Of a stretch of 64,000 bases of DNA, positions 44,335 to 61,075 are shown piece after piece. Position 1 is the first letter of the stretch, and every line of letters begins with the position of its first letter. The position numbers and the translations under genes are program-made. Source of the DNA: an uncultured Oscillibacter sp. (GTDB lineage Bacteria; Bacillota; Clostridia; Oscillospirales; Oscillospiraceae); the NCBI GenBank assembly GCA_947365245.1, contig CANAWG010000011.1:36452-100451 (forward strand). Direction: 5' to 3'. The notes below the pieces were generated by a model. That model saw only the letters and a list, made by a program, of their open reading frames with translations. It was not told the origin of the DNA and searched no databases.

Positions 44335-44721
44335 AATCATAACCACTTTCAGATAGTCTCTGTTCCATGTGCCGCATGCAACTCCGTCTTATCTGCTTCA
44401 TCGTTTTTCGGATTTGGTCAGCTAGAACCTCCGGGTATTGAATGGCGTCAACAGACTTGCAACAAACAGGCGGCACAGAAAGGGATGGGACGCCTTTCCA
44501 GAAAGCCGCACAAGAACTCCCCATGATGACGCCCATTCCAAATATCACACAGATGTTCTTTTCTGCTGTCACTGTACTGTGTGGCAGATTTCCAATCCGA
44601 TCAGCACGCGCCGCAAGGGTTGAGGCAGACTACAAATGGGGCCGAACGCAGGAGACAGCTTCATCCAAGCTGGCTCGTTTCCCCTTCTCTCCCGGCTTTT
44701 CCATACTGTGTATCCGCCTCC
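44335..44721. other. 387-bp stretch without a recognisable gene
   Basis: Minus-strand fragments such as ICVIFGMGVIMGSSC are open but have no known similarity or ribosome site. It may be the remains of a deleted glycan gene between the radical SAM gene and ptmE. Confidence 0.5.
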
Positions 44722-45765: not shown

Positions 45766-45815
45766 GTGCGGCCCCCCTATCTATATGGTTGTAATCTGCT
45801 GAATCGCACGGAACA

Positions 45816-46865
45816 TCAGACCGCGTAAAAAAAGCTCTCAATCCCACCGTATTCAAGATGATGGCGCAGATAAAACCGGTACGCTGGAACCAATTCCCGC
45901 AGATAATTCCATACGTCCAGCAGCGCTTCTCCGCTATATGAGACGCACACTGCCAGCTTCAGACAGTTGTTTATGATCTGCTGCTTCGCTCCATGAATCG
46001 CTTTTAATTCAGAGGCGTTGATGCTCATTGTCATATACGTAATCGGTTCACAAATCGTATCGTCAATGGTCACAGCCTCAATACGGCCGCTATTCAACAA
46101 TTTCTCTTCGGCTACATGGGAGAGATTTGCGGCCCCATCGCTGTCGCTAAAGCAAAGCGTTGTCTCGCAATCCCAGGCGCCCTTTGGAATAATTTTGACC
46201 CGTCCATCCTGCTGAGCTTTTTCCACGGCCTCACTCAAAACCCGCAAGTTGTTCGGATCCGGTTCAAAGCAGTAGGCGGCTTTATAACCCGGGCAATGTC
46301 CCAAAAAATCCAGAAGCGTTTTACCGTCATAAGAACCCACCTCTGCTAAAACCTCGCCACTTGAAAGATGGCTGATATCCTCCGGATAATATTTATCTGG
46401 CGCATAGATTTCACGAAAATAGTCATACTCTCCGGATATCCGTCCCTTTATTATATTTATAAAAGCCTTTTTCGATTGTTCATCCGCCAGCTCATCATAC
46501 ATTCGGGAGAGCCCGCTCCAATGCTCTACAAGGTAGGCGCGGTATTCTTCCACGTCCGGAATCCATTCCACATAGGGAGTCGTTTTAAAAAGGAAGATAT
46601 TTTCCGCCGGAAAGTGCCGCTCCAGCATCTCGCGGATCTCCTTTTCCACCGAGGGAGAGGAGATCACAAACCAGCTCTCCGGGTCCAGGTTCGTGAGAAG
46701 GAAGTCCCCAAACCGGAGGATGGGAATTCCCTCGCAGCTTCTCTGCCGAAAGGTATTTAAAATTGCCAGGATTTTAACTCCATGCTTTCGCAGGAACCGA
46801 ACCGTGTGCAGCTTCTGTACGCCTGCGCCGTACAAATAGATAGCTTTGCCCGGGTTTGAGCCCAT
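45816..46865 (-). CDS. FkbM family methyltransferase (apparent N-terminal frameshift)
   Basis: 349 aa from ATG 46865. N-terminal Rossmann-like part (AIYLYGAGVQKLHTVRFLRKHG) resembles the small sensor modules of glycan-modifying enzymes; the C-terminal FkbM SAM-methyltransferase domain (about 160-349) has LAEVGSYDGKTLLDFL as motif I and CFEPDPNNLRVL as the acidic motif. Probably O-methylates a sugar. A better start exists at ATG 46933 (AAGGAGAAATTC) in another frame, whose product MVLSDKILQFVQQEK flows naturally into this protein if one base is shifted near 46850-46865. Either a real frameshift or a sequencing error. Confidence 0.78.
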   Translation of the reverse strand: MGSNPGKAIYLYGAGVQKLHTVRFLRKHGVKILAILNTFRQRSCEGIPILRFGDFLLTNLDPESWFVISSPSVEKEIREMLERHFPAENIFLFKTTPYVEWIPDVEEYRAYLVEHWSGLSRMYDELADEQSKKAFINIIKGRISGEYDYFREIYAPDKYYPEDISHLSSGEVLAEVGSYDGKTLLDFLGHCPGYKAAYCFEPDPNNLRVLSEAVEKAQQDGRVKIIPKGAWDCETTLCFSDSDGAANLSHVAEEKLLNSGRIEAVTIDDTICEPITYMTMSINASELKAIHGAKQQIINNCLKLAVCVSYSGEALLDVWNYLRELVPAYRFYLRHHLEYGGIESFFYAV

Positions 46866-46980
46866 TTTGCAAACTCCATGCTGATATTTTTCTCTTGCTG
46901 AACGAATTGCAGAATCTTGTCTGATAACACCATGAATTTCTCCTTGAAACCAAAGATTTATGGACGTTCCTGAGACCGGC

Positions 46981-48156
46981 TCAGGAATCAGGCGCAAACT
47001 CCAGCAGCGCCTCACAAACCCGGTCCAGCTGTGCCCCTGTCAGATTCGTGCCACAGGGAATGTTGATCACACGGCCATAAAACTCCTCCGCATTTTTGCA
47101 ATCCATGGCTCTGTATTTCCGAAAGGGCGTCTGGGTGTGATTCAGCTTCCAGATCGGCCTGGCCTGGATTTGACGGTTATTCAAATATCGCAACAGACGG
47201 TCCCGCTTCGCGCCGTCCGCCTCCCGGAGGGCGAAAGAGTAAAACCAGTGGTTGGAGCCCTCTCCGCTTCCAAAGGGCAGCAGCGCCCCATAGCCGCAGC
47301 CTGCCAGCTTCTCCTGATAGAGGGCGTAATTCCGGCGCTTGATCTCCAGAAAGCCGTCCAGCTCCTCCAGCTGGGCAAGGCCCAGGGCCGCCTGCAGGTT
47401 GGTCATGCGGTAGTTGTATCCCCACTCCTCGTGGACGAAGTACACGGCGTCGTCCTTGGCCTGCTGGGAGAGGTAGCGTATATGCTCCACCGCCGCCGCG
47501 TCGGAGGAGACCACCATGCCCCCTCCGCCGGTGGTGATGATTTTGTTGCCGTTGAAGGAGAGAACCCCGGCGTGGCCCGCAGTGCCGGTGGACAGGCCCT
47601 TGTACCGGCCCCGGCTGAACACGCCGCCCAGGGATTCGGTGGCGTCCTCGATCACAGCCAGATGGTATTGCTCTGCCAGGTCCATCAGGCGGTCCATATC
47701 GCAGTGGTCGCCGAAGACGTGGACCGGAATCATGGCTTTCACGGTTTTACCAGAGGCGATTTCCACCGTTCTGCCGTTTTCCGGGCGGCATTCGTGTTCC
47801 AGGTACGCCGCCACCTGCTCTGCGTCGATGCACATATGGTCGTCGCAGTCGAAGAACACCGGCTCCGCGGACTGGTACAGCACGGCGTTGACGGTGGCGA
47901 TGAACGTCAGCGTGGGCACCAGCACCAGATCCCCCGCCGTGACGCCGAAGTGCCGCAGGCAGAGATGGAGCCCCGCCGTGCCGGACTGGCAGGCACAGGC
48001 CTGGGGGACAGACAGCCGGGATGCCATTTGTTCCTCAAAGCGGCTGATAAACGCTCCGGCGGTGGAAACCCACTCCGTGTCAACGGCCTCGTTGACATAC
48101 TTTTTTTCGTTTCCCCGGAAGTTTGGAGTTGATAGCGGAATCCATCTAGTTTCCAT
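46981..48156 (-). CDS. legC: DegT/DnrJ/EryC1/StrS aminotransferase, LegC type
   Basis: 391 aa PLP enzyme that adds an amino group to C4 of a 4-keto-6-deoxy nucleotide sugar. The catalytic Lys lies in LSFNGNKIITTGGGGM, the PLP phosphate loop in QSGTAGLHLCLR, and the Asp contact in AVIEDATESLGG. The start WIPLSTPNFRGNEKKYVNEAV and VDTEWVSTAGAF are typical of the LegC family. Start ATG at 48156 behind AAGAGG. Function in legionaminic acid synthesis fits with ptmE, neuC and neuB. Confidence 0.9.
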   Translation of the reverse strand: METRWIPLSTPNFRGNEKKYVNEAVDTEWVSTAGAFISRFEEQMASRLSVPQACACQSGTAGLHLCLRHFGVTAGDLVLVPTLTFIATVNAVLYQSAEPVFFDCDDHMCIDAEQVAAYLEHECRPENGRTVEIASGKTVKAMIPVHVFGDHCDMDRLMDLAEQYHLAVIEDATESLGGVFSRGRYKGLSTGTAGHAGVLSFNGNKIITTGGGGMVVSSDAAAVEHIRYLSQQAKDDAVYFVHEEWGYNYRMTNLQAALGLAQLEELDGFLEIKRRNYALYQEKLAGCGYGALLPFGSGEGSNHWFYSFALREADGAKRDRLLRYLNNRQIQARPIWKLNHTQTPFRKYRAMDCKNAEEFYGRVINIPCGTNLTGAQLDRVCEALLEFAPDS

Positions 48157-48203
48157 ATAAAACCTCTTGTGCACAGCGGAAACGTAATTTTGAAGTTATA
48201 ACG

Positions 48204-48902
48204 CTACTCTATTTCCACATTGAAATATATTTGTGCTTTACAACGCTCCGCTTTTCTGTTGCGTACGACGATTTCTCCGCTGGGCGTACGTTCTACAACT
48301 TTATCATCCGGTATTGCTTGGTTGTAAACCACAGCGTCTACACCAATCGATACCCGGTCCCCTATTGGTTCCTGACCAATAATTTTCGCGCCCGCACCCA
48401 AAAACAGCCCTTTCCCTAATTTGGGAAGACAGTCGGGTCCTTGCTCCGTTCCCGTGTTGATGGTCACATTCTGTGAAATTACCAGAAAATCGCTATATCC
48501 GGCATTTCCGATGATACTCCCAACTGGATGGGCAAGAAGAAATACATCTGGCAATTTGCATTTGTAAGAAAAGAAGCATCCATTCAAGGCTTTATTTAAA
48601 CCAATTAATTTATCACAGATTGGTTTGTTCTGTGACAGGGTCCATAGTGAATTTGCAAAATAGTATAAAAACTGGCTATATTGATCCGAATGCAGATGGG
48701 AAAAAGATGCTGTGCCGCGACCATTGGAATAGCCTCTGAGCGTTGTGCGGGAAAAACTGTACTCCAGACGTTCCAGCGCAGCGCTAAACGCCTGATCCAC
48801 ATCATCCCCCCGCATCGCATACTGGTCGGGATAATAATGCTCTAACTGTTTTGCTACATAGCATTGCAGTTCATTATAAGGCAGCGATAAATGCATACTC
48901 AT
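48204..48902 (-). CDS. Hexapeptide-repeat acyltransferase, serine-acetyltransferase-like
   Basis: 232 aa. Helical N-terminal half without strong similarity, then a left-handed beta-helix (about 120-200: FLLAHPVGSIIGNAGYSDF, GLFLGAGAKIIGQEPIGDRVSIG) as in CysE-like transferases. Probably acetylates a sugar of the flagellar glycan. No cysK is nearby, so a role in cysteine synthesis is unlikely. Low GC compared with neighbours on both sides. Starts 2 bp after the end of the glycosyltransferase gene, so the two are coupled. Confidence 0.75.
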   Translation of the reverse strand: MSMHLSLPYNELQCYVAKQLEHYYPDQYAMRGDDVDQAFSAALERLEYSFSRTTLRGYSNGRGTASFSHLHSDQYSQFLYYFANSLWTLSQNKPICDKLIGLNKALNGCFFSYKCKLPDVFLLAHPVGSIIGNAGYSDFLVISQNVTINTGTEQGPDCLPKLGKGLFLGAGAKIIGQEPIGDRVSIGVDAVVYNQAIPDDKVVERTPSGEIVVRNRKAERCKAQIYFNVEIE

Positions 48903-48904
48903 AG

Positions 48905-50581
48905 TTATACTTTTCCCTCAAAATCTTCTTGACTGAACAAAAACCAGCCGTTCCCCAGCAGTTTCCCTCCGGACGTTCCCCGGATCAGCTTCTGGGTCTG
49001 CTTTGTTTGCTTTATGAGCAGCTTTCCATCAGGGGTAAGGCTTTTGCGGCAGCAATTCAGCAGCATACTAAATTTATATTGAGGCAGAAAGGGATCTTCC
49101 CATACAACATACTGAAACGTGCGCGTATGTAAAACCTGTTTAAAATCTTTAATAGACGATATTTTTTCCGTCTGATCCCCTACTCCCTGCAAATCGGCAA
49201 GATATCTTCCGTCGTCTATGAGAAAACTCAACCGACAGTCTGTGTTATGGCAATATTCCTTGATTTGCTCTTTGATTTTTAACGCATTACTTCCCAACCC
49301 GCAGTTAATTCCCAGCACTTCGACATGCCCTTGGTGATCCCCAACCATACGCTCCATAAATACCGGATCATAGCAGGACCCGGTTCCCCAGGGATCTACC
49401 CCAAACGCTTTCCGGAATTCTTCACGGCCTTCTGTGTAATATATTTGCTCATTGTGCTGCCGAACTTCATTTTTCAGTGTTACGGAGCCATAGTGATGGC
49501 AGTAAGCATCTTTGGCCAGCATCAGCTTATAACCCTGCCGGCGCCATAAAAGGGAAATCCGGTCATCTGGAAAAGACATGGCATATACCGGGTGACTGGT
49601 ATGAAACGCGCCGCTGATGCAAAGCCCCTTAGAGGAACAAAACAAGCTGTTCCTCATCATTTGGATAGGATTGCATAAACGAACTCTTTGCTCCCAGCGG
49701 AATGGATCCGAATGGTTATTTTTAAAAGCGAATTCCGCCAATTCTCCCAAAGAGGAATACTCTGCCGGAATTGTCTGTAGATTACTGATGTTTGGCGTTG
49801 TGGGCACAACCGCCGCAATCTTAGGATTAGACCGCATACAAGCCAGCATATTTTCTATCGCGTGAGGGGTCACCACAACGTCATTGCTAATCATCAGCAT
49901 AAATTCGCCCTCTACGATTCGATAGACCGCTCCCGCCCCTCCGCCATTGACCGCTATATCCAACTGCTTGTCCGGATGGACACTCTCAAAATATTCTTTT
50001 GTCCCGTCACTGGAGCCGTGATTTACTAAAATCAATTCATAGCTCAGACCCGCCGGAAGGTTGGCAAGCAAACTCTCTACACAAATCTTTGTATAGTCAA
50101 GTTTATTATATGCCTGAACAAAAATGGAAACCTCATATTTAAAGCTCCCTCGCTCCAGGGCTTCGTCAATGTATTCATTTTTAAACAGCAGATTTTTTTC
50201 CTTAGTATAATACTCCGACAGATGTTCCGGGTGATTCACCAGATACTGGAAGAAATAGTACATCGCATAGCCCTGCTGCAACAGGGGCAATAACTCAAAC
50301 TCAATTTTACTCAGACAGGACATCCGATCAGCCTCATAGAGTGTCTTTATTCGCCGGATAGAATCCAAAACCGACTCACAGACAGGATGTAACTTTTTAT
50401 TTCCGTCTGTTTCCGCCATTTCCACCGACCATAGAACCTGCCTCAATCCAAGGGACATATCCGCACAAAGCTGGCCGAACTCCTGCGTATTTTCTAGTTC
50501 CGCACTGGTATATAATTCCTGACAGGCCTCCTGCATGGTTTTCAGAAGTTCCAAAATATGAAGAACAACCTGATCGTCCAT
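48905..50581 (-). CDS. Family 2 glycosyltransferase, large
   Basis: 558 aa. A helical N-terminal region of about 150 residues precedes a GT-A domain (about 155-400): EVSIFVQAYNKLDYTKICVES, LVNHGSSDGTKEY and the DxD-like ISNDVV. The C-terminal 150 residues (GHVEVLGINCGLG) resemble a methyltransferase-like Rossmann domain. Adds a sugar to a flagellar or surface glycan in the cytoplasm. Start ATG at 50581 behind GAGGAGAGAT; the longer frame is spurious. AT-rich relative to rfbF, suggesting separate acquisition. Confidence 0.82.
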   Translation of the reverse strand: MDDQVVLHILELLKTMQEACQELYTSAELENTQEFGQLCADMSLGLRQVLWSVEMAETDGNKKLHPVCESVLDSIRRIKTLYEADRMSCLSKIEFELLPLLQQGYAMYYFFQYLVNHPEHLSEYYTKEKNLLFKNEYIDEALERGSFKYEVSIFVQAYNKLDYTKICVESLLANLPAGLSYELILVNHGSSDGTKEYFESVHPDKQLDIAVNGGGAGAVYRIVEGEFMLMISNDVVVTPHAIENMLACMRSNPKIAAVVPTTPNISNLQTIPAEYSSLGELAEFAFKNNHSDPFRWEQRVRLCNPIQMMRNSLFCSSKGLCISGAFHTSHPVYAMSFPDDRISLLWRRQGYKLMLAKDAYCHHYGSVTLKNEVRQHNEQIYYTEGREEFRKAFGVDPWGTGSCYDPVFMERMVGDHQGHVEVLGINCGLGSNALKIKEQIKEYCHNTDCRLSFLIDDGRYLADLQGVGDQTEKISSIKDFKQVLHTRTFQYVVWEDPFLPQYKFSMLLNCCRKSLTPDGKLLIKQTKQTQKLIRGTSGGKLLGNGWFLFSQEDFEGKV

Positions 50582-50618
50582 ATCTCTCCTCACCCCTTTA
50601 CTCCCCGGCGAATATCCC

Positions 50619-51407
50619 TCAGAATTCCTCCCACAGTTTCCAGGGCGCACGTCCGCCGCTCCAAAGGCTCTCCAACAAGCCCCGGTCTCTCTGGGTGTCC
50701 ATGCACTGCCAGAAGCCGGGGTGCTTGTAGATGCCCAGCTTTCCTTCTCCCGCCAATGTCTCCAAAGGCTTCCGCTCCAGAATACAGCCCTCCTCCGGGC
50801 TGAGATAATCAAACACCTCCGGCTCCATCACCATGAAGCCGCCGTTGATCCAGCCGCCGTCCTCTTTCGCTTTCTCCCGAAAGCCCGAGACGGTGGTCCC
50901 CGCCTCGTCCAGGTCCAGCACGCCGAACCGGCCTCCCGGCTGGATTCCCGTCAGCGTTACGGTCTTGCCCGACGCTCGGTGCTGGGCCAAAAGCGCGTTC
51001 AGGTCCACATCGCTCACCCCGTCGCCGTAGGTCAGCATAAAGGGCTCGTCCCCGATGTAGCACTGGACCCGCTTGATTCGCCCGCCGGTCTGGGTCTTGA
51101 GGCCGGTGTCCACCAGCGTCACCCGCCAGGGCTCCGCCACATTCGTGTGAACGGTCATACGGTTCTCCGCGGAAAAGTCGAAAGTCACGTCGGAGCGGTG
51201 GAGGTAGTAGTCAGCGAAGTACTCCTTGATCAGGTGCCCCTTGTAGCCGCAGCAGATGACGAAGTCGTGGAAATCGAAGCTGGAGTAGTATTTCATGATA
51301 TGCCATAAAATCGGCTGCCCGCCGATCTCAATCATGGGCTTGGGCTTGAGATGGCTCTCCTCGCTGATGCGGGTGCCAAGGCCCCCGGCCAAAATCACGA
51401 CTTTCAT
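50619..51407 (-). CDS. rfbF: Glucose-1-phosphate cytidylyltransferase
   Basis: 262 aa. Makes CDP-glucose from glucose-1-phosphate and CTP, the entry to CDP-3,6-dideoxyhexoses. N-terminal VVILAGGLGTRISEESHLKPKPM and ILWHIMKYYSSFDFHDFVIC are classic RfbF; YGDGVSDVDL holds the metal-binding Asp. Full length and intact, although the next two enzymes of the path (rfbG, rfbH at 35.7-36.9 kb) are pseudogenes. Start overlaps the end of the glycosyltransferase gene at 51404 by 4 bp. Confidence 0.93.
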   Translation of the reverse strand: MKVVILAGGLGTRISEESHLKPKPMIEIGGQPILWHIMKYYSSFDFHDFVICCGYKGHLIKEYFADYYLHRSDVTFDFSAENRMTVHTNVAEPWRVTLVDTGLKTQTGGRIKRVQCYIGDEPFMLTYGDGVSDVDLNALLAQHRASGKTVTLTGIQPGGRFGVLDLDEAGTTVSGFREKAKEDGGWINGGFMVMEPEVFDYLSPEEGCILERKPLETLAGEGKLGIYKHPGFWQCMDTQRDRGLLESLWSGGRAPWKLWEEF

Positions 51408-53521
51408 GTGTAATCCCCTTCAATGAGATACGCTACCCGCCGGTAAGCCGGGCTCTGTTTGATCGCCGCCACCGCCGGGTCCTTTGGGTCATAGGCCGCC
51501 AGCATGGTCCGCACCTGCTCCGCCAGGGCCAGCAGCTCGGGACTCGGCGGCGGGGCCTGGAGCTCCGGCGTGTGCTCCGTCAAAAACTCCACCATGGACC
51601 TCATCTCCGGGGCCGTCTCCAGCCCGGCGCGCAGCAGCCGGACATAGCCCGCCGCGTCGCCCGCGTCCAGGGCGGCGAACGCTCGGGCGCAGTGCCACCC
51701 GAAGCGGTGCATGGGCGGCAGGAGGAAGAGCCCCTCCTCCGTCAGCGCACCCGGCGCATAGCACAGGGGCAGAAACGCCCGCTCCACCTCCGCAAACCGG
51801 CGGGCCAGCTCCATGCCCTGTTCCGCATCTTTCCACTTGCATTCCCGCGCCGCCGCCAGCGCCAGTCCCCGGGCCCAGCAGAGGGTCCGCGGGTCCTCCA
51901 CGTCCTCGGGGAGCAGGCCGGCGCAGTCGCCGCAGGCGGCCAGCCGCGCGGCCAGCAGGTCCATGGTCTCCACATCCATTCGCTTTCCGGGCAGGGGAAA
52001 GCGCACGCCCTGCCGCAGGGCGTGGTCCAGCGCCTCCGGCGGGAGGAGCGTCCAGTCCTCCACCGCGGCAAGAAGCGCCTCCAGCCGGGCGGCGTCCTCC
52101 GTCTCCAGCATGGCCGCGGCGGCGCCGGGCTCGCATGTTCCGCACAGGGGCAGCAGCAGCGTATAGGCGTGCCGGGAAAGGCCCGTCTCCCGCTCCGCCG
52201 CGCGCTTGGCGTCGGAAAAGGCCGGGAACACGGCCTCGCAGAAGGCCCGCTTCCGCTCCCCGGCCGCCCGCTCGTCCGGGACCGGGGCGGAGAGCCCCGC
52301 CCAAACGGCGGTGACCAGGGCGTCCGTCTCCAGGTTGGCGCTCGTCCGCAGGTTCATCAGCGCCTGGGCCAGCGCCTCTGTCATGCCCGAATCCAGAGCG
52401 GAGAAGTCCAGCCCCTCCAGCAGCGCCCGGGCCTCCTCCGGCCGCTCCAGGTTGCGGTACACATCCGCCAGGGTAATCCGCACGATCTGCTCGCTCCGGG
52501 GAGAGTCCATCTGGAGCACGCTGCGCAGCCGGGCCAGAGGGTCCAGCCGTCCCGCCCGGTCCTCCGCCAGGGCCTCCAAATAGCCCTCGCCCCGGCGGAC
52601 GGCCTCCTCCGGCTCATTCCGCCTCCGGAAATGGAGGAACGCCTGGAACGCCACGTCGATGCGGGTGAAGGCGGAGTCTGGGAACCAGGCCTCCGCCTTT
52701 TGGATCCACTCCTCCAGCTCCGGCAGGGTTCCCACCGCGGCGTTGGTCACGGCGTAGCGGAGAATGGGCGGGCCCAGCGTCTCCCAATGGGGCGCCCGCT
52801 TCTCCACCAGCTCCACCGCCCGGCGGAGGATGTCCGGGTAGTCCGGCTCCTCCCGGCCGCTCTCCAGCATCTGGAGATACACCTGCAAATTGTCCGGGGC
52901 CTCCTCCAGCTCCTTGCGCAGCATCGCCATGTTCCGGGCCTCTTTTTTCCGGCCCGCCTCTCCATCCAGGTTCATCACCACATAGCCGTCGTGGTGCAGA
53001 ACCGTCTGCCGCAAAAGCGTGCGCGCCCCCCCTCTGTCGGGCCACCGCCACTGCTCGTGAATGCTCCCCTCGTAGCGGGGGCGCTTGGCCATGCAGGCCA
53101 GACGGGTCGTGAAAGAGTCCTGATACGGCCCTTTCGGATCGTAGGTACCGTAGTTCCGGATCACCACCACGCCCATGGTATAGGGGTCTCCGTTCCAATC
53201 GCGCAGGAAGCCCGCCAGCTGGGATACGTCCTCGTCCAGCCACTCGTCCGAATCCAGCGTCAGGCACCAGTCCCCGGCGCAGCGGTCCAGAACCGCGTTC
53301 CGGGCGGCGGCGAAGTCGTCGATCCAGGGGAAGTCAAACACGATATCCGCGTATTTTTCCGCCACCGCGCGGCTGCCGTCCGCGGAACCGGTGTCCGCCA
53401 TCACCACCTGGCAGGGGACCGCCTGACGCAGGGGCTCCAGGGACCGCAGGCACCGCTCCAGACAGCGGATATCATCCCGAAAGATCATGGCCACGGACAG
53501 CAGAGGTCTCTTTTCCATCAT
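51404..53521 (-). CDS. Glycosyltransferase with long TPR-like C-terminus, beside flagellin
   Basis: 705 aa. GT2 domain in the first 230 residues (LSVAMIFRDDIRCLERCL, MADTGSADGSRAVAE, LTLDSDEW as the DxD motif), followed by about 450 residues of helical, leucine/alanine-rich repeats like tetratricopeptides. Directly downstream of flagellin on the same strand, it is a good candidate for the enzyme that glycosylates flagellin, with the repeats binding the protein substrate. Start ATG at 53521 behind GGAGGAAAG. High GC, like flagellin and unlike the phosphoramidate genes, so it is likely older at this site. Confidence 0.82.
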   Translation of the reverse strand: MMEKRPLLSVAMIFRDDIRCLERCLRSLEPLRQAVPCQVVMADTGSADGSRAVAEKYADIVFDFPWIDDFAAARNAVLDRCAGDWCLTLDSDEWLDEDVSQLAGFLRDWNGDPYTMGVVVIRNYGTYDPKGPYQDSFTTRLACMAKRPRYEGSIHEQWRWPDRGGARTLLRQTVLHHDGYVVMNLDGEAGRKKEARNMAMLRKELEEAPDNLQVYLQMLESGREEPDYPDILRRAVELVEKRAPHWETLGPPILRYAVTNAAVGTLPELEEWIQKAEAWFPDSAFTRIDVAFQAFLHFRRRNEPEEAVRRGEGYLEALAEDRAGRLDPLARLRSVLQMDSPRSEQIVRITLADVYRNLERPEEARALLEGLDFSALDSGMTEALAQALMNLRTSANLETDALVTAVWAGLSAPVPDERAAGERKRAFCEAVFPAFSDAKRAAERETGLSRHAYTLLLPLCGTCEPGAAAAMLETEDAARLEALLAAVEDWTLLPPEALDHALRQGVRFPLPGKRMDVETMDLLAARLAACGDCAGLLPEDVEDPRTLCWARGLALAAARECKWKDAEQGMELARRFAEVERAFLPLCYAPGALTEEGLFLLPPMHRFGWHCARAFAALDAGDAAGYVRLLRAGLETAPEMRSMVEFLTEHTPELQAPPPSPELLALAEQVRTMLAAYDPKDPAVAAIKQSPAYRRVAYLIEGDYT

Positions 53522-53588
53522 GCACGCTCTCTTTCCTCCGCGCCCTTTGGAAAACCGCCGCCGCTCCGGCGGCTTTCCATGGGACACG

Positions 53589-53624
53589 GAAACGGGAGCG
53601 GGCTTTTGCCCGCCCCCGTTTTGA
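53589..53624. terminator. Hairpin behind flagellin
   Basis: AAACGGGAGCGGGC, loop TTTT, GCCCGCCCCCGTTTT; between flagellin and the glycosyltransferase, with a short T run in either direction. Confidence 0.65.
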
Positions 53625-53774
53625 TTGGGTCTATGCGGTTTGTTCCAAGAACCGCGTCCCCGTCCCTCTCCGACGCAAACCAACGAAGTGTTTGCGGAGG
53701 AAAATGAGGAGCAAGGGAGTGTGCGCAGTTTTCGCCGTCAGGCGGAAACGAAGCAAAGCGGACTTTGCGACGAA

Positions 53775-55469
53775 TTAGCCCAGCAGCTGCAGCACGCCCT
53801 GAGGAACAGCGTTGGCCTGGGCCAGCATGGCCTGGGCGGACTGGATCAGGATGTTGTTCTTGGTGTAGGCCATCATCTCCTCGGCGACGTCGGTGTCGCG
53901 GATGGTGGACTCGGCGTCCTGGATGTTCTCCGCCATGACGCTCAGGTTCTTCTGGGTGTGCTCCAGACGGTTCTGGTAGGCGCCCAGGTCACCGCGGACG
54001 GAGGACACGTTGTTGATGGCGTTGCGGATGGTCTCGATGGCGCCGGAGGCGCTCTCGGGATTGCTGATGTCCAGACCGGCAATGCCCAGGGCCTTGGTGT
54101 GCATGTCGCCCACGTAGACCTTCATCTGGTTGAAAGGATCGGCGGTGTCGCCGATCTGCAGCTGCAGGCCGCCGCCGGCGATCTTGGAGGTGCCGGCCTT
54201 CAGGGCGATGCTGACGCCGGTGGTACCGCCGGTCGCGGTAGCGTCTTCGGCAAAGGTGTTCGTCGCGCCCTCGGTGGTAACGCCGAGGGTGGCTTCCAGA
54301 CCGGTCTCCATGCCGATCTTGTGGGCGGCGTCCAGCAGATCATCAGCGGTGGCGCCATTCCAGGCGTTGCTGGTCACATCCAGGAAATGCTCCACGCCGG
54401 CGGCCTTCAGCTCGGCCTTCATGTCATCGTCCAGCTTGGTGCGGTCCACGACGGCGAACTTCTTGCCGTTGAGCGTGAACGTGGCCCGGTCCAGCTTGTT
54501 GGTGCCGTCGTTCGCGGGGGTGGCATCGGAGCCCTCGTAAATCTTCAGGCTGGTGATGTCAAGAGCCTGATAGGCGTCCGAGCCGACAGCGGCAACAATA
54601 CCGTTGTTTTTAACGGTGCCATTGATATCGAGATTGATGGCCTTGACCTGCATGGTGCCAGCGCCGGCCTCTTTTGCGGTGAACACCAGCTTGTTGGTAT
54701 CAACGGTCACGTCAAAGTTGTTAGCAACATCCTTGTTCTTCTTCAGCGCGTCCGCAATCGCCTGAACACCGGTAGCCTGATCAGAAACCGTGTAGGTGTT
54801 GCCGTCGGCATCCGCAAACTCGTTGGTGTTGGCGGTCTTGGTCAGCTCAACGGTAATCTCCTTGGTGGCCTTGCCATCGGCGTCGGTCAGGCTGACGGTG
54901 AACGAAGCCTTCTGCCCAGCAGTCAAAGTGTTGAAAGCATCAATGGCGGCGTTGCTCGTATAGGTGCCCTTGGTGGCGTCGATCTCAAAGGTGTTGATGC
55001 CGTCGATCTTGCCCACGGAGGAGGCGGTGGAGCCGCCCACCTTGGACAGGGAGCCGTCCAGCAGCTTGATGCCGTTGAAGTTGGAGCTGTCGGCGATACG
55101 GTCAATTTCGGTCTTCAGGGCGTCGACCTCTTTCTGAAGGTTGGCGCGGTCGACCTCGTTGTCGTAGGTGCCGTTGGCGGACTGGGTGGCCAGGTAGTCC
55201 ATGCGGTTGAGCATGTCCTGGATCTCCTGCATGGCGCCCTCGGCGGTCTTCACCAGGGAGATGCCGTCCTTGACGTTCTTCTGGGCGGCGTTCAGACCGG
55301 TGATCTGGGCGCGCATCTTCTCGGAAATGGCCAGACCGGCGGCGTCGTCGCCGGCGCGGTTGATCTTGTAGCCGGAGCTCAGCTTCTCCAGGTTCTTCGC
55401 CAGAGCGCTGGTGTTGGTGTTGTAGTTCCGGTAGGCGTTCATAGCCATGATGTTATGCTGAATCCTCAT
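53775..55469 (-). CDS. fliC: Flagellin
   Basis: 564 aa, major filament protein, exported by the flagellar type III system. The N-terminal D0/D1 domain (about 1-150: MRIQHNIMAMNAYRN, SSGYKINRAGDDAAGLAISEKM) and C-terminal D1/D0 (about 465-564, ending VPQGVLQLLG) are conserved. The central 300 residues (D2/D3) are variable and Thr/Ser/Ala-rich, offering many O-glycosylation sites, in keeping with the glycan genes downstream. Start ATG at 55469; the ribosome site GGAGG is in the loop of a hairpin that touches the start codon. No sigma-D promoter is visible in the 150 bp to csrA, so co-transcription with csrA is possible. Confidence 0.96.
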   Translation of the reverse strand: MRIQHNIMAMNAYRNYNTNTSALAKNLEKLSSGYKINRAGDDAAGLAISEKMRAQITGLNAAQKNVKDGISLVKTAEGAMQEIQDMLNRMDYLATQSANGTYDNEVDRANLQKEVDALKTEIDRIADSSNFNGIKLLDGSLSKVGGSTASSVGKIDGINTFEIDATKGTYTSNAAIDAFNTLTAGQKASFTVSLTDADGKATKEITVELTKTANTNEFADADGNTYTVSDQATGVQAIADALKKNKDVANNFDVTVDTNKLVFTAKEAGAGTMQVKAINLDINGTVKNNGIVAAVGSDAYQALDITSLKIYEGSDATPANDGTNKLDRATFTLNGKKFAVVDRTKLDDDMKAELKAAGVEHFLDVTSNAWNGATADDLLDAAHKIGMETGLEATLGVTTEGATNTFAEDATATGGTTGVSIALKAGTSKIAGGGLQLQIGDTADPFNQMKVYVGDMHTKALGIAGLDISNPESASGAIETIRNAINNVSSVRGDLGAYQNRLEHTQKNLSVMAENIQDAESTIRDTDVAEEMMAYTKNNILIQSAQAMLAQANAVPQGVLQLLG

Positions 55470-55488: not shown

Positions 55489-55619
55489 TAAAATGATTGC
55501 CAGGGAAAATCCGGCGCTTTGGGCATCCTGTCCCTCAGCTTGTGCAGAGTGCCTTTCAGGCCGCCATTCGCGCGTAACGGACAGCCTTTCCGGCACGGTA
55601 CAATATTTCTCCCGGCTCG

Positions 55620-56006
55620 TCAGCCGGTTGAAATCTCTCTGTTTTGGGGCCCCTCGGCCACGGTGGGCAAAAACCCCGGCGGAAACAGGCTGTCCAACTG
55701 CCTGCGCAGGGTGCGGACCTCATCGCTCTCGCCGTCCATCTGACTGAGCAGAGACCGCATGGCGGATACCGTCTGGGTCTTCCCCCGGTTCCAGCTGATC
55801 TCCTGCCGGTGGCGGCGGGGGGCGTCAAGCACACAGTCGGGGCGTTCCCCGCCGGTCCGCTCCAGAACCTTTCCCCGTACAATGGGAACCTCCCTGGGGG
55901 CCTGGATCATCAGCTTGCAGCGGTCGCCGGAGACGTTGTCCAGCTGTACCACCACATTCTCGCCGATGGTCATGTAATCTCCTGTTTTCAGCTGTAGGGA
56001 CAGCAT
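55620..56006 (-). CDS. csrA: CsrA-like RNA-binding regulator with extended C-terminus
   Basis: 128 aa. Residues 1-50 are a CsrA domain: MLSLQLKTGDYMTIGENVVV, then MIQAPREVPIVRGKVLER, with the RNA-contact residues Leu4 and Arg44 in place. Usual CsrA is 60-75 aa; here about 75 extra residues follow, first basic (APRRHRQE) then helical (MDGESDEVRTLRRQLDSL). In B. subtilis CsrA blocks flagellin translation and is relieved by FliW; no fliW is in the window, so the tail may replace or bind such a partner (inference). Start ATG at 56006 behind AAAGGAGTTGCC. Between the dead-TnpB locus and flagellin, same strand. Confidence 0.86.
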   Translation of the reverse strand: MLSLQLKTGDYMTIGENVVVQLDNVSGDRCKLMIQAPREVPIVRGKVLERTGGERPDCVLDAPRRHRQEISWNRGKTQTVSAMRSLLSQMDGESDEVRTLRRQLDSLFPPGFLPTVAEGPQNREISTG

Positions 56007-56226
56007 GGCAACTCCTTTCGCCACTTGCTCATCGTCATAATATTTTGGACGCCCCGGAGGGCTTCGGCCGCGGCCCCAGAGGGAGGCGGCCTCTCGTTTC
56101 CTACTCGACGGTCTGGAAAACGCTGAGCAAAACGGAACATCCTCTATTCTGCTTTGCTCAACGCTTCCCATAACCGGAATCATAGGCTTTCCCCGGCGTC
56201 CTCACCGGTATAGCTGGGCTTATGCT
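56007..56226 (-). ncRNA. Candidate omega/guide RNA of the dead TnpB
   Basis: 220 bp between the tnpB-like stop and csrA, no ORF. Directly after the stop the strand reads GGTGAGGACGCCGGGGAAAG, which matches the conserved opening of omega RNAs at the right end of clostridial IS605-type elements. Then come GAAGCG, an inverted-repeat region (GAGCAAAGCAGA and complementary GCTCAGCG) and GAGTAGGAAACGAGAGG, again like the family's scaffold end. The guide would follow the last hairpin; a boundary after GGGGCGTCCAA (about 56047) is my best guess but not certain. Confidence 0.55.
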
Positions 56227-57378
56227 TTAAGCGGCTTCCCGCTTTTGCATCCTTTGATATTGGGCCAATCCCTCGGTCTTGATGTTTTTCGCGGCGTTGA
56301 CCTCCCGGTCATGGACCGCGCCGCACTTGGGGCAGGTCCAGCGATGATTTTTGCAGCTGACGGCGGCGTCCAGAACCATCCCGCAGGCGGAACAGGTCCG
56401 GCTGGTGGGGGTATAGCGGTCCACTTCGATCAGCGCCTTGCCCTGCCGCGCCAGTTTGTAGCGGAGGCACTTCCGGAAAGCTCCGTAGCCCTCCCTCATG
56501 CCGTTTCCAAAGTTGAACTTCTGAGACAGGTCCGCCAGGTCGTCGTTCCTCACGCACACGGCGTCCCAGGCGTTGGCTATCCGCCGGGATTCCTGGTGAA
56601 TGAAGTCGCGCCGCTGGTTGACGGTGTGCTCGTGAAGCAGGCGGTACTTCTGAACTGTTTTCTCATAATTCCTGGAGCCGGGCTGCATCCGGCAGAGCTG
56701 CCGCTGAATTTTAGCCAGCTTCTCCTGGGACTGTCTGAGCCATTGGGGCGGGTCTGCCAGTGCGCCGTTGTCCGCCGCGTAGAAATGCCGCATGGAGTAT
56801 TTCAGCCCCAGTGTGGTCTCCGGCGTGGGAACGACAGGTTCCGGCTCTTTCACGGTGTACTCATATAAAATGTAGGCGTAGTATTTGCCGGTCCTGGTCC
56901 GGTCCACCGTCACCCGTTTCAGCTTCCAGCCGCTGCGGGGGCGGCGGGGGAACTTCGCCCGGACGATTCCGGCCTTGGTCATGCGGAGGCCGTCTCTGGT
57001 GATGTAGATGGTCGGACCGGACGTAAACTCGTGGTTGCTGGCGGTGAAAGAATCCCGGTCGTCCTTTTTGCGCTTGAAATTGGGATAGCCGAAGCACTCC
57101 GGATTTTTGAAGAACACGCGGAACGCCTGGGAGAGCTTGTTGTGCTCCTGGATCAACGCCTGGTTGTCTACCTCGGTGAGGAACGGGGCCTCTTTCTTGT
57201 ACTTGGCCGGGGTAGGGATGAAGTGGGCGTCGGTTTCGATATAAAACCTCTGCTGATCGACCAGCATCCGGTTCCAGATGTAGCGGCAGCAGCCGAAAGT
57301 CTTTTCAAACAGCTCCGCCTGGGCCTCGTTTGGATAGAGGCGGGCCTTGAGGGTGGTGAACCGTTTGATGTCCGCCAT
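56227..57378 (-). CDS. tldR: Nuclease-dead TnpB, TldR-type candidate RNA-guided regulator
   Basis: 383 aa, full-length TnpB: N-terminal WED/REC-like domain (about 1-185, FGCCRYIWNRML), RuvC domain and zinc ribbon (Cys329, 332, 349, 352 all kept). In active clostridial TnpBs the RuvC residues are Asp in LGLDxSM, Glu in CIEDLD and Asp in DRDxNAA. Here they read LGLKYSM (Lys193), CVRNDD (Arg277) and DREVNAA (Glu359): all three are replaced while the surrounding residues are conserved. No tnpA is present. This is the pattern of TldRs, TnpB-derived RNA-guided repressors known beside flagellin genes in Enterobacteriaceae. Here it is beside csrA and flagellin. Start ATG at 57378 behind GGGGAGGGGCGG. 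Target not identified. Confidence 0.85.
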   Translation of the reverse strand: MADIKRFTTLKARLYPNEAQAELFEKTFGCCRYIWNRMLVDQQRFYIETDAHFIPTPAKYKKEAPFLTEVDNQALIQEHNKLSQAFRVFFKNPECFGYPNFKRKKDDRDSFTASNHEFTSGPTIYITRDGLRMTKAGIVRAKFPRRPRSGWKLKRVTVDRTRTGKYYAYILYEYTVKEPEPVVPTPETTLGLKYSMRHFYAADNGALADPPQWLRQSQEKLAKIQRQLCRMQPGSRNYEKTVQKYRLLHEHTVNQRRDFIHQESRRIANAWDAVCVRNDDLADLSQKFNFGNGMREGYGAFRKCLRYKLARQGKALIEVDRYTPTSRTCSACGMVLDAAVSCKNHRWTCPKCGAVHDREVNAAKNIKTEGLAQYQRMQKREAA

Positions 57379-57424: not shown

Positions 57425-57456
57425 CTGTCCGAAGTTGCGTACAACTCCGTCCAGGC
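57425..57456. repeat. 32-bp repeat A with inner palindrome
   Basis: Begins CTGTCCGAAGTTGCG and ends ACAACTCCGTCCAGGC; near-identical to the repeat at 57539-57570, same orientation. The inner part is a near-palindrome. Lies in the leader of the dead tnpB. Confidence 0.8.
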
Positions 57457-57489
57457 GCTTCCAGTTTTCTCAACTGTTTTCATTACTAC

Positions 57490-57538: not shown

Positions 57539-57570
57539 CTGTCCGGAGTTGTACACAACTCCGTCCAGGC
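57539..57570. repeat. 32-bp repeat B with inner palindrome
   Basis: CTGTCCGGAGTTGT then ACACAACTCCGTCCAGGC; 28-29 of 32 positions match repeat A, 114 bp away. The symmetrical core GGAGTTGT-AC-ACAACTCC looks like a binding site for a serine recombinase dimer or a repressor. It ends 3 bp from the recombinase stop codon. Confidence 0.8.
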
Positions 57571-57573
57571 TTT

Positions 57574-58179
57574 TTATATGCACCGGACGGCCGCTTCCGC
57601 CCGCAGAGAGGCGTCATAAAAGGTGGACTTGGGCATTCCACAGGCATCCGCGGCTTCCCGCAGCGTCATTTGTTTCGCCCTCCACGCCTGGTGCAATGCT
57701 TCAAAATCTTTCGGCGGAGCCTGGGCCTCCGGCCCAAAATGGACGCCCCTGGCCTTTGCCGCAGCAATGCCCTCCATCTGCCGCCGGCGGATGTTCTCCC
57801 GCTCGGTCTGCGCGACGTAGCTGAGAAGCTGGAGAACGATGTCGGCAACCAGCACCCCGGTGAGGTCCCGGCCTTGTCGGGTATCCAACAGCGGCATATC
57901 CAGCACTACGATATCGATTCGCTTTTCTTTCGTTAGCAGCCGCCACTGCTTCAATATTTCATCGTAGTTTCGCCCCAGCCGGTCGATGCTCTTGATTACG
58001 AGGGTGTCCCCGGCTTTGAGTTTGCGGACCAGCTTCCGGTACCCAGGACGCTCAAAATCCTTGCCGCTTTGCTTATCCACTACGGTGTTGCTGTCTTTTA
58101 CGCCGAATTCCCGCATAGCAATCATTTGCCGGTCCTCATTCTGCTCCTTGGTAGAGACTCGAACATATCCGTATTCCAT
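57574..58179 (-). CDS. Small serine recombinase (resolvase/invertase)
   Basis: 201 aa. Catalytic N-terminal domain with YGYVRVSTKEQNEDRQ (nucleophile Ser9), the conserved arginines in RPGYRKLVRKLK and SIDRLGRN, and a helical E-region; C-terminal helix-turn-helix (MTLREAADACGMPKSTFYD). Size and layout fit Hin/Gin invertases and Tn3-type resolvases. Two 32-bp palindromic repeats directly behind the gene could be its sites. Next to a flagellin locus, control of flagellin by inversion is imaginable, but the two repeats are in direct orientation, which favours resolution. Start ATG at 58179 behind AAAGGAGGAGCG. Confidence 0.9.
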   Translation of the reverse strand: MEYGYVRVSTKEQNEDRQMIAMREFGVKDSNTVVDKQSGKDFERPGYRKLVRKLKAGDTLVIKSIDRLGRNYDEILKQWRLLTKEKRIDIVVLDMPLLDTRQGRDLTGVLVADIVLQLLSYVAQTERENIRRRQMEGIAAAKARGVHFGPEAQAPPKDFEALHQAWRAKQMTLREAADACGMPKSTFYDASLRAEAAVRCI

Positions 58180-58539: not shown

Positions 58540-58959
58540 ATGTCTTATTACAGCATCGATGAACTGCGCCGCATTATTGCGCCAATTGCCAGTGCTCATG
58601 GCGTGGAAAGCGTTTCGGTATTCGGCTCCTATTCCAAAGGCAACGCCACAGCGGACAGCGGCATAGACTTAAAAATTGAAAAAGGCCAGATTTGTCGGTC
58701 GGGCGATGGATTTATACTAAGGCAAGCGTCCTCCGTATCAATTTTTGACAACGTTTCGCAACTTAAAAGATATTGGAATAAGAATATTTCTCCACTCCCC
58801 TCCATAGTTAAAAATCAGCTTTCACGAATTGCAGATCCGGCGCTATCCGGCGCTAAATGTTCAGCTTTTCTTTGTTGGTCAAGACAAGAAGGATACATCA
58901 AACATTGCCAATCACGGTTTTTCAATCACGGTTTTTATAATAAGCAAGATTTGCATTAA
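58540..58959 (+). pseudogene. Nucleotidyltransferase (MNT-like) remnant
   Basis: The first 45 codons encode an intact MNT-type start: VSVFGSYSKGNATADSGIDL is the GSxxxGxxxxxSDxD signature with the Ser-Asp altered to Ser-Gly. After GQIC the family similarity stops, and the rest of the frame reads unrelated sequence, so a frameshift or deletion is likely. Intact relatives are antitoxin-like partners of HepT. The fragment joins other defence and mobile debris. Confidence 0.65.
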
Positions 58960-59028
58960 ATGCTTTATGCATACGCTGGTTTGGAAAGGGAACAACTTCC
59001 GCAGGAAAAGATTGATGAGATAAAATGA
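58960..59028 (+). pseudogene. 3' end of a small gene coupled to an SMC-like ATPase gene
   Basis: The last 22 codons of a gene (MLYAYAGLEREQLPQEKIDE) end in an ATGA overlap with the next frame at 59025, the mark of a translationally coupled pair. The body of the gene is missing. The arrangement resembles the middle component of three-component ABC/SMC-type defence systems; this is a tentative reading. Confidence 0.4.
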
Positions 59029-59437
59029 ATGAATTCTACCGGCAAATTGATCCAAACGGAAATATTGTATATACAAGCCTATTTACTCAGCGGAATGAGG
59101 TATATTCTGGAAGCGAAGCAACAATTTTCCACTTGGTAAAATTGTTCGCCTTGCAATTTGTTTTACGACATAATTTCCCAATAATAATTGATTCTTTCCG
59201 TGCGGAGGACCTGTCCACCGATAAAGAAAACACTGTACTTGAAATATCAAAGTCTACTGGTAATCAAGTAATATTGACGACGACACTGAAACGCGAAGAG
59301 ATAGGAAATATGATACGCTGACTGATGTGAATCATATAAATTATCAGGCTCATACTCCAAGTAAAATTCTTAACAATACTTATGTAGAAAATTTTGTAGC
59401 GTTGTTAGCAAACCTTTCGATTGAGATCAAGCAGTAA
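59025..59437 (+). pseudogene. C-terminal remnant of an SMC/Rad50-like defence ATPase
   Basis: YSGSEATIFHLVKLFAL is like an ABC signature/D-loop region, FPIIIDSFRAEDLSTDKE is a Walker B with following D-loop, and VILTTTLKREEIG the switch segment. The frame is lost at about 59310 but resumes as YDTLTDVNHINYQ to a TAA at 59435. A whole enzyme would be about 600 aa, so most is gone. Such ATPases occur in phage-defence operons; here it is only a relic. Confidence 0.65.
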
Positions 59438-59540
59438 CCTAAATTGGCGGTGGTATCTCCGAATGCCGTGAAATTTTTAGAAGCTGTTGCGACATAACGG
59501 CTGCGAGCCTGCATCTTTTTTGTCAACGAAAGACATGAGG

Positions 59541-59570
59541 CCGTCGGAATCGTTTGATTCCGACGGTTTT
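59541..59570 (+). terminator. Hairpin before boundary repeat copy 2
   Basis: CCGTCGGAATC, loop GTTT, GATTCCGACGG then TTTT. Confidence 0.75.
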
Positions 59571-59701
59571 CTCTTGTTTATGCAACTTTTTCGTGGGATT
59601 TATTTTTGTCTCTTCAGCCGGACCCACAAGTTGACCCACACGGGGAAACGTCCGGAAAGGGCGAAAGAGTACCGGGCAGGAAAATCCTGCCCAATGCTGT
59701 A
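59567..59701 (+). repeat. Island boundary repeat, copy 2 (candidate att region)
   Basis: Direct-orientation counterpart of 24271-24408: the two share CCCACACGGGGAAA-like, CCGGAAAGGGCGAAAGAG and GTACCGGGCAGG stretches. It is followed 27 bp later by an integrase 3' remnant, just as copy 1 precedes the intact integrase. Confidence 0.65.
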
Positions 59702-59728
59702 ATTTAGAGCTTTCTTGCCCTTTCACAT

Positions 59729-59805
59729 TTAACTGCCGATCACCGCTCCGATGGTGTCTGCCGCCTCCTGCTCCATCCGCGTTGCGGCGTGGGTAGAGGT
59801 GTTCC
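59729..59805 (-). pseudogene. Tyrosine integrase C-terminal remnant
   Basis: The last 25 codons on the minus strand (THAATRMEQEAADTIGAVIG) match the end of the integrase at 25182 with few changes; everything upstream, including the catalytic Tyr codon, is lost or replaced. Confidence 0.8.
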
Positions 59806-59995
59806 TTGCCCAACCGATAGGCCGCACAGTCATTTCTGTTGCGGGCAGCGTACTCCAGCCGCTGCACACCCAATCCCGGATCATGAATCTCCGGATCATC
59901 GGGGAGAAGCAGCACACCTAACCCATACCGTGCCGCAGCCACACCCTGGCGAGCAGCTCGGTCGAACCCAGTCACAGCCTCCATATTGCCTGGGA
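59806..59995 (-). pseudogene. Sel1-like repeat fragment, probably from a mobilisation protein
   Basis: AARQGVAAARYGLGVLLL and YAARNRNDCAAYRLGKE are Sel1-type repeats, as at the C-terminus of some relaxases of clostridial conjugative elements. It joins directly to the integrase remnant and has no start. Confidence 0.5.
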
Positions 59996-59999
59996 TTAA

Positions 60000-60400
60000 G
60001 CAGCGTTCACATAAGGGCATCAATAATGAGAGCAAAATAGACAAGATCAAATCCAGTTTGTCATAGCGGTGAAAATACGACGAAAACGCTTGATACGGCG
60101 AAAAGCCTCTCAACCTGATTACGCTGTTTGTACAGCTCTTTATCACAGTCCCAAGGATCTTTGCGATTGCTTTTTGGCGGAACAATAGATATATCCAAGT
60201 TCCACTGCCACAGCTCTCGTCTCATCCCCTTCGCAGGCCCGATCCATCAAAAGGTAAACCGGATGATCCGCTGGACCGAGCTGCCGCAAAAGAGCACAAC
60301 CCTCGGGACCATCTCCACAGTTTCCGGCAGACAGCGAAAAGATTATCCCATTTCGATCAGATGCGGCGACCATACGAATATCCGTCTGAGATTCGGAAAA
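60000..60400 (-). pseudogene. IS5-family transposase remnant
   Basis: The minus strand encodes SLSAGNCGDGPEGCALLRQLG and YLLMDRACEGDETRAVAVELG, the DDE domain of IS5-type transposases, then a frameshifted C-terminus (NRKDPWDCDKELYKQRNQVE, FHRYDKLD). Several frame breaks and no N-terminus. Confidence 0.75.
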
Positions 60401-60469
60401 TTTTTGAGCAAGGTAATGCTGTTTTTAGTGGCGGCGTGCCTTGCTCTTGTCTGTTTCAGCAAAAAATCT

Positions 60470-61075
60470 TAACATTATGAATGTTGATGCCGCTTTCATC
60501 CGGGAATACCAGGTTATCCGCGCCGCTCCCTGACATATGTTTTTCGCTCTTACCGGCCGCTTCTGACACCGGAGACATTCCTGTCCTGAAACGTGGAGAG
60601 ACTTCTTGTTGTAAATGTATCCAAACATTCGGTTGTTTCCTTTGCGTTATGCGCTTTATTCCAAGCCTCAATCCGTAATTTACGCGCCTCATTCTGCAGC
60701 ACACGCTTACCCCTTGACCCCATTTTAGGACCCATGTCAAATTGGTATGATAGTTCCGAGAATTGCTATATTACCAACCCTGTCCAATGGTGACATCACC
60801 GTCATGGACAACATGCGGTCCCACCGCGCAAAAGCAGTAAAACAGATCTTGGATGCATCCAAGATCAGATACCCTTATCTGCCGCCTTACAGCCCGGATC
60901 TCAACCCGATCGAAAAATGTGGTCAACGCTTAAGGCGTATCTGCGAAAAATGAAAGTCCGTGTGCTGCCGAGGCTGCCAAAAGCAGACGAAGAGGTCTTT
61001 TCAGCAGTCGTCGTCTCAGATCGTTTCGGCTGGTTCCGTTCATGCAGCTATGTGGGGTAATTTATTGGATTGCTA
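60470..61075. pseudogene. IS630-family transposase fragments in opposite orientations
   Basis: At 60470-60560 the minus strand reads LVFPDESGINIHN, the first DDE motif region of IS630 transposases; at 60790-61075 the plus strand reads DITVMDNMRSHRAKAVKQIL and YPYLPPYSPDLNPIEK, the later motifs, with a frameshift after IEK. The pieces are on opposite strands, so the element was rearranged. Confidence 0.7.

Follow-up and report, generated by a model that had tools for sequence, protein, structure and literature searches.

A csrA- and fliC-linked nuclease-dead TnpB of an uncultured Oscillibacter as a predicted RNA-guided repressor of a second flagellin gene

Results

We describe a locus of an uncultured Oscillibacter in which a nuclease-dead TnpB (TldR) and a guide RNA would together form an RNA-guided repressor that silences a second, unlinked flagellin gene while the flagellin gene linked to the locus is expressed. 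Based on the comparative sequence analysis presented here, we assign this reading a probability of roughly 0.87. The locus lies in a window of 64,000 nucleotides, which is the whole stretch of DNA that was analysed (contig C11:36452-100451) and comes from a 95%-complete genome of 2.82 Mb. On the minus strand, the order is a serine invertase gene, two hix-like sites with a -10 box, tldR, the scaffold plus guide (56029-56210), csrA, and fliC (Table 1). The original prediction had placed csrA and then fliC downstream of tldR on the same strand, as we also find; the upstream invertase gene, the segment that the inverted sites enclose, and a guide RNA located between tldR and csrA go beyond it.

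Table 1. Features of the tldR locus, in window coordinates.
Feature	Position	Strand	Remarks
hin-type serine invertase gene	57574..58179	-	Pfam Resolvase; PHROG DNA invertase
hix-like recombination site, invertase side	57539..57568	-	core GT
FliA/sigma-D type -10 box (presumed type), GCCGATAA	57490..57497	-	between the sites, pointing toward tldR; -35 weak
hix-like recombination site, tldR side	57425..57454	-	core AC, inverted relative to the other site
tldR, nuclease-dead TnpB	56227..57378	-	K193/R277/E359; zinc-ribbon Cys 329/332/349/352 intact
guide-RNA (omegaRNA-like) scaffold, putative	56045..56210	-	folding z, compensatory changes, model R1
16-nt guide (predicted), AATATTATGACGATGA	56029..56044	-	15/16 match to second flagellin gene, codons 6-11
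csrA, CsrA domain plus C-terminal extension	55620..56006	-	
flagellin leader hairpin	55603..55635	-	common to cis and trans flagellin genes
fliC, linked (cis) flagellin gene	53775..55469	-	
target-equivalent site in cis fliC, AACATCATGGCTATGA	55439..55454	-	12/16 match to guide; 5' triplet CAT, not CAC

The guide and its match in the genome

The 16 nucleotides that follow the scaffold find their match at C2:192422-192437, inside a second flagellin gene. This gene, whose start is at C2:192407, lacks an adjoining tldR and shows, by eye, a FliA-type promoter of its own about 0.2 kb upstream. When the 17-mer around the guide was searched in its own genome with at most two mismatches, the only non-self match was the one in this gene, and the chance expectation for a 16-mer with at most one mismatch is 0.01-0.06. 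With at most three mismatches, there were four matches including the guide itself, against three for the same pattern read backwards, which served as the control; as this count is not above the control, the weight of the result lies in the location of the match.

The guide corresponds to the sense strand of the unlinked flagellin over the codons given in Table 1, and therefore would pair with the template DNA strand, antisense action on that mRNA being impossible. The equivalent site in the cis fliC differs from the guide at positions 3, 6, 10, and 12, and the differences at 3, 6, and 12 are synonymous, leaving the encoded protein unchanged. A third flagellin match in the genome (C37:4922-5342) is fragmentary and split over two frames, and is perhaps a pseudogene.

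Linked and unlinked flagellins across loci

The comparison was made over 32 loci, the window included, from 26 genomes; all are of the type that carries K/R/E at the three catalytic positions, and each was required to have at least one further flagellin start. We left out loci in which no second flagellin start was found (L002, L016, L023, and G191/L085), loci at a contig end (L017 and G303 C69/L088), duplicates of loci that were kept (L083, L084, L086, L087, L089-L091, L093, L099, L103, L104, and L111), and the loci of a second dead subclade, whose guides have another register. As targets we counted neither the flagellin start on C60 of G016, which contains a stop codon, nor divergent flagellins outside the site patterns.

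With the best unlinked site picked among up to five, a choice that favours the unlinked class, the seed (positions 1-9) had fewer mismatches to the unlinked than to the linked flagellin in 26 of the 32 loci, as many in 6, and more in none. A perfect 9-nt seed was present for 23 unlinked and 3 linked flagellins, the best unlinked site still carrying a seed mismatch in 9 loci, and position 6 was mismatched in 29 linked flagellins vs 2 of the best unlinked ones. Compared with the average over the unlinked sites, the linked seed was worse in 24 loci, equal in 6, and better in 2. Linked seed mismatches add up to 56, compared to a mean of 34.2 (sd 4.5) under a null in which the “linked” flagellin was drawn at random within each genome, and 0 of 100000 draws were as high; the loci share ancestry, so these counts are not independent. 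The 5' triplet CAC was found in 29 of the best unlinked and 12 of the linked sites, and guide position 10 was mismatched in 30 of the 32 loci, in linked and best unlinked flagellins alike.

Exceptions were also seen. Both K/R/E-type loci of G141 lack any found flagellin that matches the seed. For L015 (G014), a broken tldR had been considered from a TGA reported for L099; the stop (7119) lies only just ahead of the end of the match (7131), so this idea was dropped and G014/L015 was kept as a real seed exception. The flagellins of G011 encode NILAMN, not NIMAMN, and the guide there reads TTTTG, as does the target (TTTTG, with the Leu codon); the guides track this Met-to-Leu codon change and, partly, the wobble bases of the flagellins. 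In the second subclade, the guides begin about eight bases earlier within the same flagellin region, and the best unlinked flagellin had fewer mismatches in four of five loci and as many in one, a count that covers some of G016's flagellins only and has G125/L107 and G306/L112 outside it.

A feedback in which TldR acts on its own linked flagellin too, by repression or tuning, could draw on the three linked flagellins with a perfect seed and on the 12 of 16 bases that the linked site of the window still shares with the guide. We consider such feedback unlikely, given the mismatch of nearly all linked flagellins at position 6 and the E. coli TldR assay published by Walker et al. 2026 (PMC13418256), where mutating nt 1-6 of the guide seed led to de-repression of FliC. 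For the repression of the unlinked flagellin that we propose, we somewhat favour a self/non-self address written in the wobble bases: the linked flagellin would be hidden by synonymous bases at positions 3, 6, and 12 (often CAT for CAC), and the guide would track its unlinked target through an amino-acid change. Under the same scheme, the mismatch at position 10 may tune how strongly a reversible block acts, and the two dead subclades would address the same codons in two registers.

The guide RNA scaffold

The fold of scaffold plus guide has a predicted energy of -86.3 kcal/mol, whereas shuffled sequences average -61.8 (z = -5.5) and 0 of 200 were as stable. In the scaffold alignment of 17 loci there are 39 consensus pairs, with compensatory changes in 17, and the covariance model built on it (R1) gives the window 118.9 bits, the window being among the 17 sequences used to build it. 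The 16 nt after the scaffold are conserved with slight variation in the window and in 21 of the 22 loci on genome contigs; L017, the remaining locus, is cut before that point. The 3' end of the scaffold is mostly GTCCA or GTTCA and resembles, by eye, the RNA behind the intact tnpB gene of L108. The long stem-loop of the window RNA could be a substrate of RNase III.

The RNA sits directly ahead of csrA, a position that would suit a structured leader controlling csrA and fliC in cis, with TldR only binding RNA and having no DNA target. This explanation seems quite unlikely to us: three loci with no csrA match (L020-L022) retain both scaffold and guide, the 16 nt fit the unlinked flagellins better than the linked ones, and the scaffold end is like that behind the intact tnpB of L108.

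The search with R1 over 20 genomes, in which 150 of the 799-2006 first-look candidates per genome were scored, revealed one guide RNA in the genome of the window. Three candidates for orphan guide RNAs (G016 C77, G016 C110, and G005 C40) were rejected because these strong hits adjoin tldR genes of the second subclade, and the search thus yielded no orphans; weak hits on the opposite strand at the same places were attributed to the long hairpin being read in reverse. Hits below 30 bits occurred in G310 and G273, of the same genus, where the fetched stretch has no tldR match. A strict guide-RNA pattern, narrow enough to miss known loci and matching 15 genomes in a set of 20, matched 6 of 300 family genomes.

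With Rfam, at the gathering score, the whole window gave three tRNAs only. A hairpin of the form TTTCA-CCGG-loop-CCGG-TGAAATA precedes the linked flagellin genes in most of the loci inspected, and the unlinked flagellin of the genome under study (L063, C2) as well. The fold z-scores of both of its flagellin leaders are unremarkable (-0.59 and -0.63), so CsrA sites there are no more than suggested.

The nuclease-dead TnpB

Read from the ATG at 57378, the tldR frame encodes 383 aa with 0 internal stops, and it stays open to an upstream ATG at 57483, which corresponds to 418 aa. The Pfam domains HTH_OrfB_IS605, OrfB_IS605, and Cas12f1-like_TNB were each found above their cut-off. In the phmmer alignment with the ISDra2 TnpB (8h1j), K193, R277, and E359 face the Asp, Glu, and Asp of its three RuvC motifs; therefore, no intact triad is concealed by misalignment. 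Among 121 aligned proteins, which are the query and the best 120 of 1584 hits, the triad is K/R/E in 119, Q/R/E in one, and K/R/D in one, so the replacement residues are conserved in their own right; Arg at position 277 and the four zinc-ribbon cysteines are retained in all 121. Both the replacement of Asp/Glu/Asp by Lys193, Arg277, and Glu359 and the retention of the cysteines, as claimed in the original prediction, are thus confirmed.

A second dead subclade, at about 52% identity, most commonly has N/R/E (73 of 119 new hits). Its other triads include N/R/D, H/R/E, and K/R/E (n=4), the Glu is kept in three hits, and three more were scored D/K/- with no third position. In the intact comparison set of 120 proteins, 105 have DED and 15 DEN. 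Of the loci fetched, L108 has the fully intact protein closest to the query; it carries D/E/D, comes from the same family, and is 44% identical. A single branch (SH-aLRT 100) parts 75 not-intact from 35 intact proteins in a tree of 110 sampled proteins, built by a quick method with rows from three separate searches, so that intermediates were possibly missed. The dN/dS of tldR against the nearest locus, L002, is 0.17, by which measure the gene is under purifying selection. Because of this value and of the one branch that divides dead from intact proteins, we regard the loss of the triad as no random decay. In the family genomes, a TGA lies within the matched span at 2 of 24 places and, in the one inspected, close to the C-terminus.

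The AlphaFold2 model of TldR has a TnpB-like fold (mean pLDDT 86, pTM 0.59; residues 285-295 below 50), and its top PDB match in Foldseek is again TnpB 8h1j (E 4.3e-27, TM-score 0.66 by query). The only PF07282 match (TnpB zinc-ribbon domain) in the genome is TldR itself, and the one Y1 transposase domain of the tnpA type is on a different contig. The D/E/D triad of active IS200/IS605 TnpB is absent from TldR in the alignments, and there is neither an adjoining tnpA nor several genomic copies.

The original prediction, which proposed a tree and a structure prediction among its checks, saw in tldR a full-length gene, with no decay and no tnpA beside it, that was exapted rather than degraded, and this view is supported. 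Two findings had been named there as refuting: an intact Asp/Glu/Asp elsewhere in the protein, which we looked for in the alignment to the solved TnpB and did not find, and random degradation of the relatives, most of which have full-length frames with the dead residues retained. Guides of TnpB elements derive from the insertion flank. A degenerate IS605 tnpB whose nuclease was lost through drift, with the flagellin-like 16 nt as a leftover of such a flank, would accord with this origin and with a tnpA that is not the neighbouring gene, but it is disfavoured, and we hold it to be extremely improbable in view of the retained K/R/E, the low dN/dS, a scaffold that covaries, and guides that track the Met-to-Leu change and, partly, wobble bases.

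The invertible promoter segment

The two hix-like sites, which are 114 bp apart and inverted relative to each other, enclose a -10 box that we take, from its consensus, to be of the FliA/sigma-D type. The promoter orientation in the window is predicted to be ON for tldR. Inversion is observed between two paralogous loci on one contig of G012 (L013, whose invertase is a gene end only, and L017), in which the 95-bp inter-site segment lies in opposite orientations, with 92 of 95 bases identical once inverted and with colinear flanks; the assembly of the genome of the window shows one orientation.

Distribution and neighbourhood of the locus

Among named relatives of the locus, L002, also from an uncultured Oscillibacter, is the closest, with 91% identity. 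Of the 22 loci on genome contigs, some of which are cut by contig ends, 21 have a downstream fliC on the same strand and the remaining one, L017, stops at the contig edge; csrA occurs in 18 and is absent from 4, and an invertase match is found in 12, of which 11 have it on the same strand, and not in the other 10. The survey of 400 genomes of the family gave 18 with a match at E <= 1e-90, including the genome of the window and the one carrying the intact L108, spread over 12 of 106 genera; none of the 8 further genomes listed for its genus, that of the window, had a match at this threshold. Six second-subclade loci from this survey have invertase, csrA, or fliC adjoining, in varying combinations. 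For tldR matches only, the 32 loci on viral contigs include one close relative (L175, 76%), the others being at most 39% identical, and 0 of 360 matching phage records reached 60% identity.

In L002, the terminal hairpin of the guide RNA carries an insertion (L002:1388-1537), which is a dispersed repeat some 80-120 nt long. Another copy lies right behind fliC in the window (53691-53773), and related copies lie right behind tldR in L007 and L015. Such insertions could be a route to expansion of the guide-RNA hairpin.

By eye, the region upstream of the invertase (58540-60953) contains a short nucleotidyltransferase-like ORF and small ORFs resembling transposase remnants, and downstream of fliC (43264-53683) there is a run of glycosyltransferase-, nucleotidyltransferase-, and aminotransferase-like genes, which perhaps serves flagellin glycosylation.

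Discussion

In the mechanism that we propose, a Hin-type invertase would flip the short segment holding the FliA-type promoter, so that in one orientation tldR, the guide, csrA, and the linked fliC would be made together, and in the other they would not. TldR would bind the scaffold, the guide would pair with the template strand of the unlinked flagellin gene just past its start codon, and the bound complex would block RNA polymerase there, with CsrA possibly contributing translational control. In the Hin/FljBA system of Salmonella, an invertible promoter drives one flagellin and a repressor of the other. The locus in the window would be an analogue of hin-fljBA in which the repressor is a predicted RNA-guided protein; Hin is also named as a parallel in the main text of PMC13418256.

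The locus belongs to the TldR systems associated with csrA that Walker et al. 2026 (PMC13418256) described, a kind already published, and the comparison that follows refers to the main text of that article. These TldRs have a dead RuvC and are linked to csrA and fliC, their guides aim at alternative flagellin ORFs, and relatives bind such ORFs in ChIP-seq. Most csrA-TldR loci have hin upstream, with short inversions that carry a FliA promoter, one of the tested homologues is from Oscillibacter, and a dual guide RNA split by RNase III is described for one Oscillibacter TldR. The locus in the window shares the dead, conserved triad, the linkage to csrA and fliC, the downstream guide to an alternative flagellin ORF (here as predicted from sequence), and the upstream hin with its FliA-promoter segment, the inversion itself being seen in G012. 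We found no difference in kind from the systems in that text, whose example strain has four csrA-tldR loci, compared to one locus and one full unlinked flagellin gene here. The original prediction of a clostridial TldR that regulates flagellin is supported, the more so since a downstream scaffold and guide match another flagellin gene; as a new counterpart of the known TldRs, it was anticipated by PMC13418256.

The fliCP-associated TldR of Enterobacter (Wiegand et al. 2024, as described in PMC13418256) is prophage-borne and targets a promoter. Likened through that description, both systems combine a dead TnpB and a linked flagellin with the repression of another flagellin by a guide RNA, which here is predicted. 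The likeness to such flagellin repressors that had been drawn from the sequence holds for the flagellin match of the guide and not for its place, which is the start of the coding region and no promoter, in a setting with csrA and an invertase. With the ISDra2 TnpB (8h1j, 8bf8), TldR shares the predicted fold and the scaffold-plus-guide at the 3' end of the gene, whereas the catalytic triad that is intact in IS200/IS605 TnpB is replaced here at all three residues, and tnpA is not beside the gene.

In the main text of PMC13418256, we did not find stated the synonymous self-avoidance of the linked flagellin, the position-10 mismatch, or the shifted register of the second subclade, and the word “synonymous” is absent from it. 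Our analysis adds an annotated locus, with its in-genome target located, to a class of natural RNA-guided repressors that was published recently, and the comparison of 32 loci yields a testable rule for how such a locus would spare its own flagellin, namely by synonymous bases opposite positions 3 and 6 of the guide. If this is true, an RNA guide would exert selection on synonymous sites of flagellin genes in gut bacteria.
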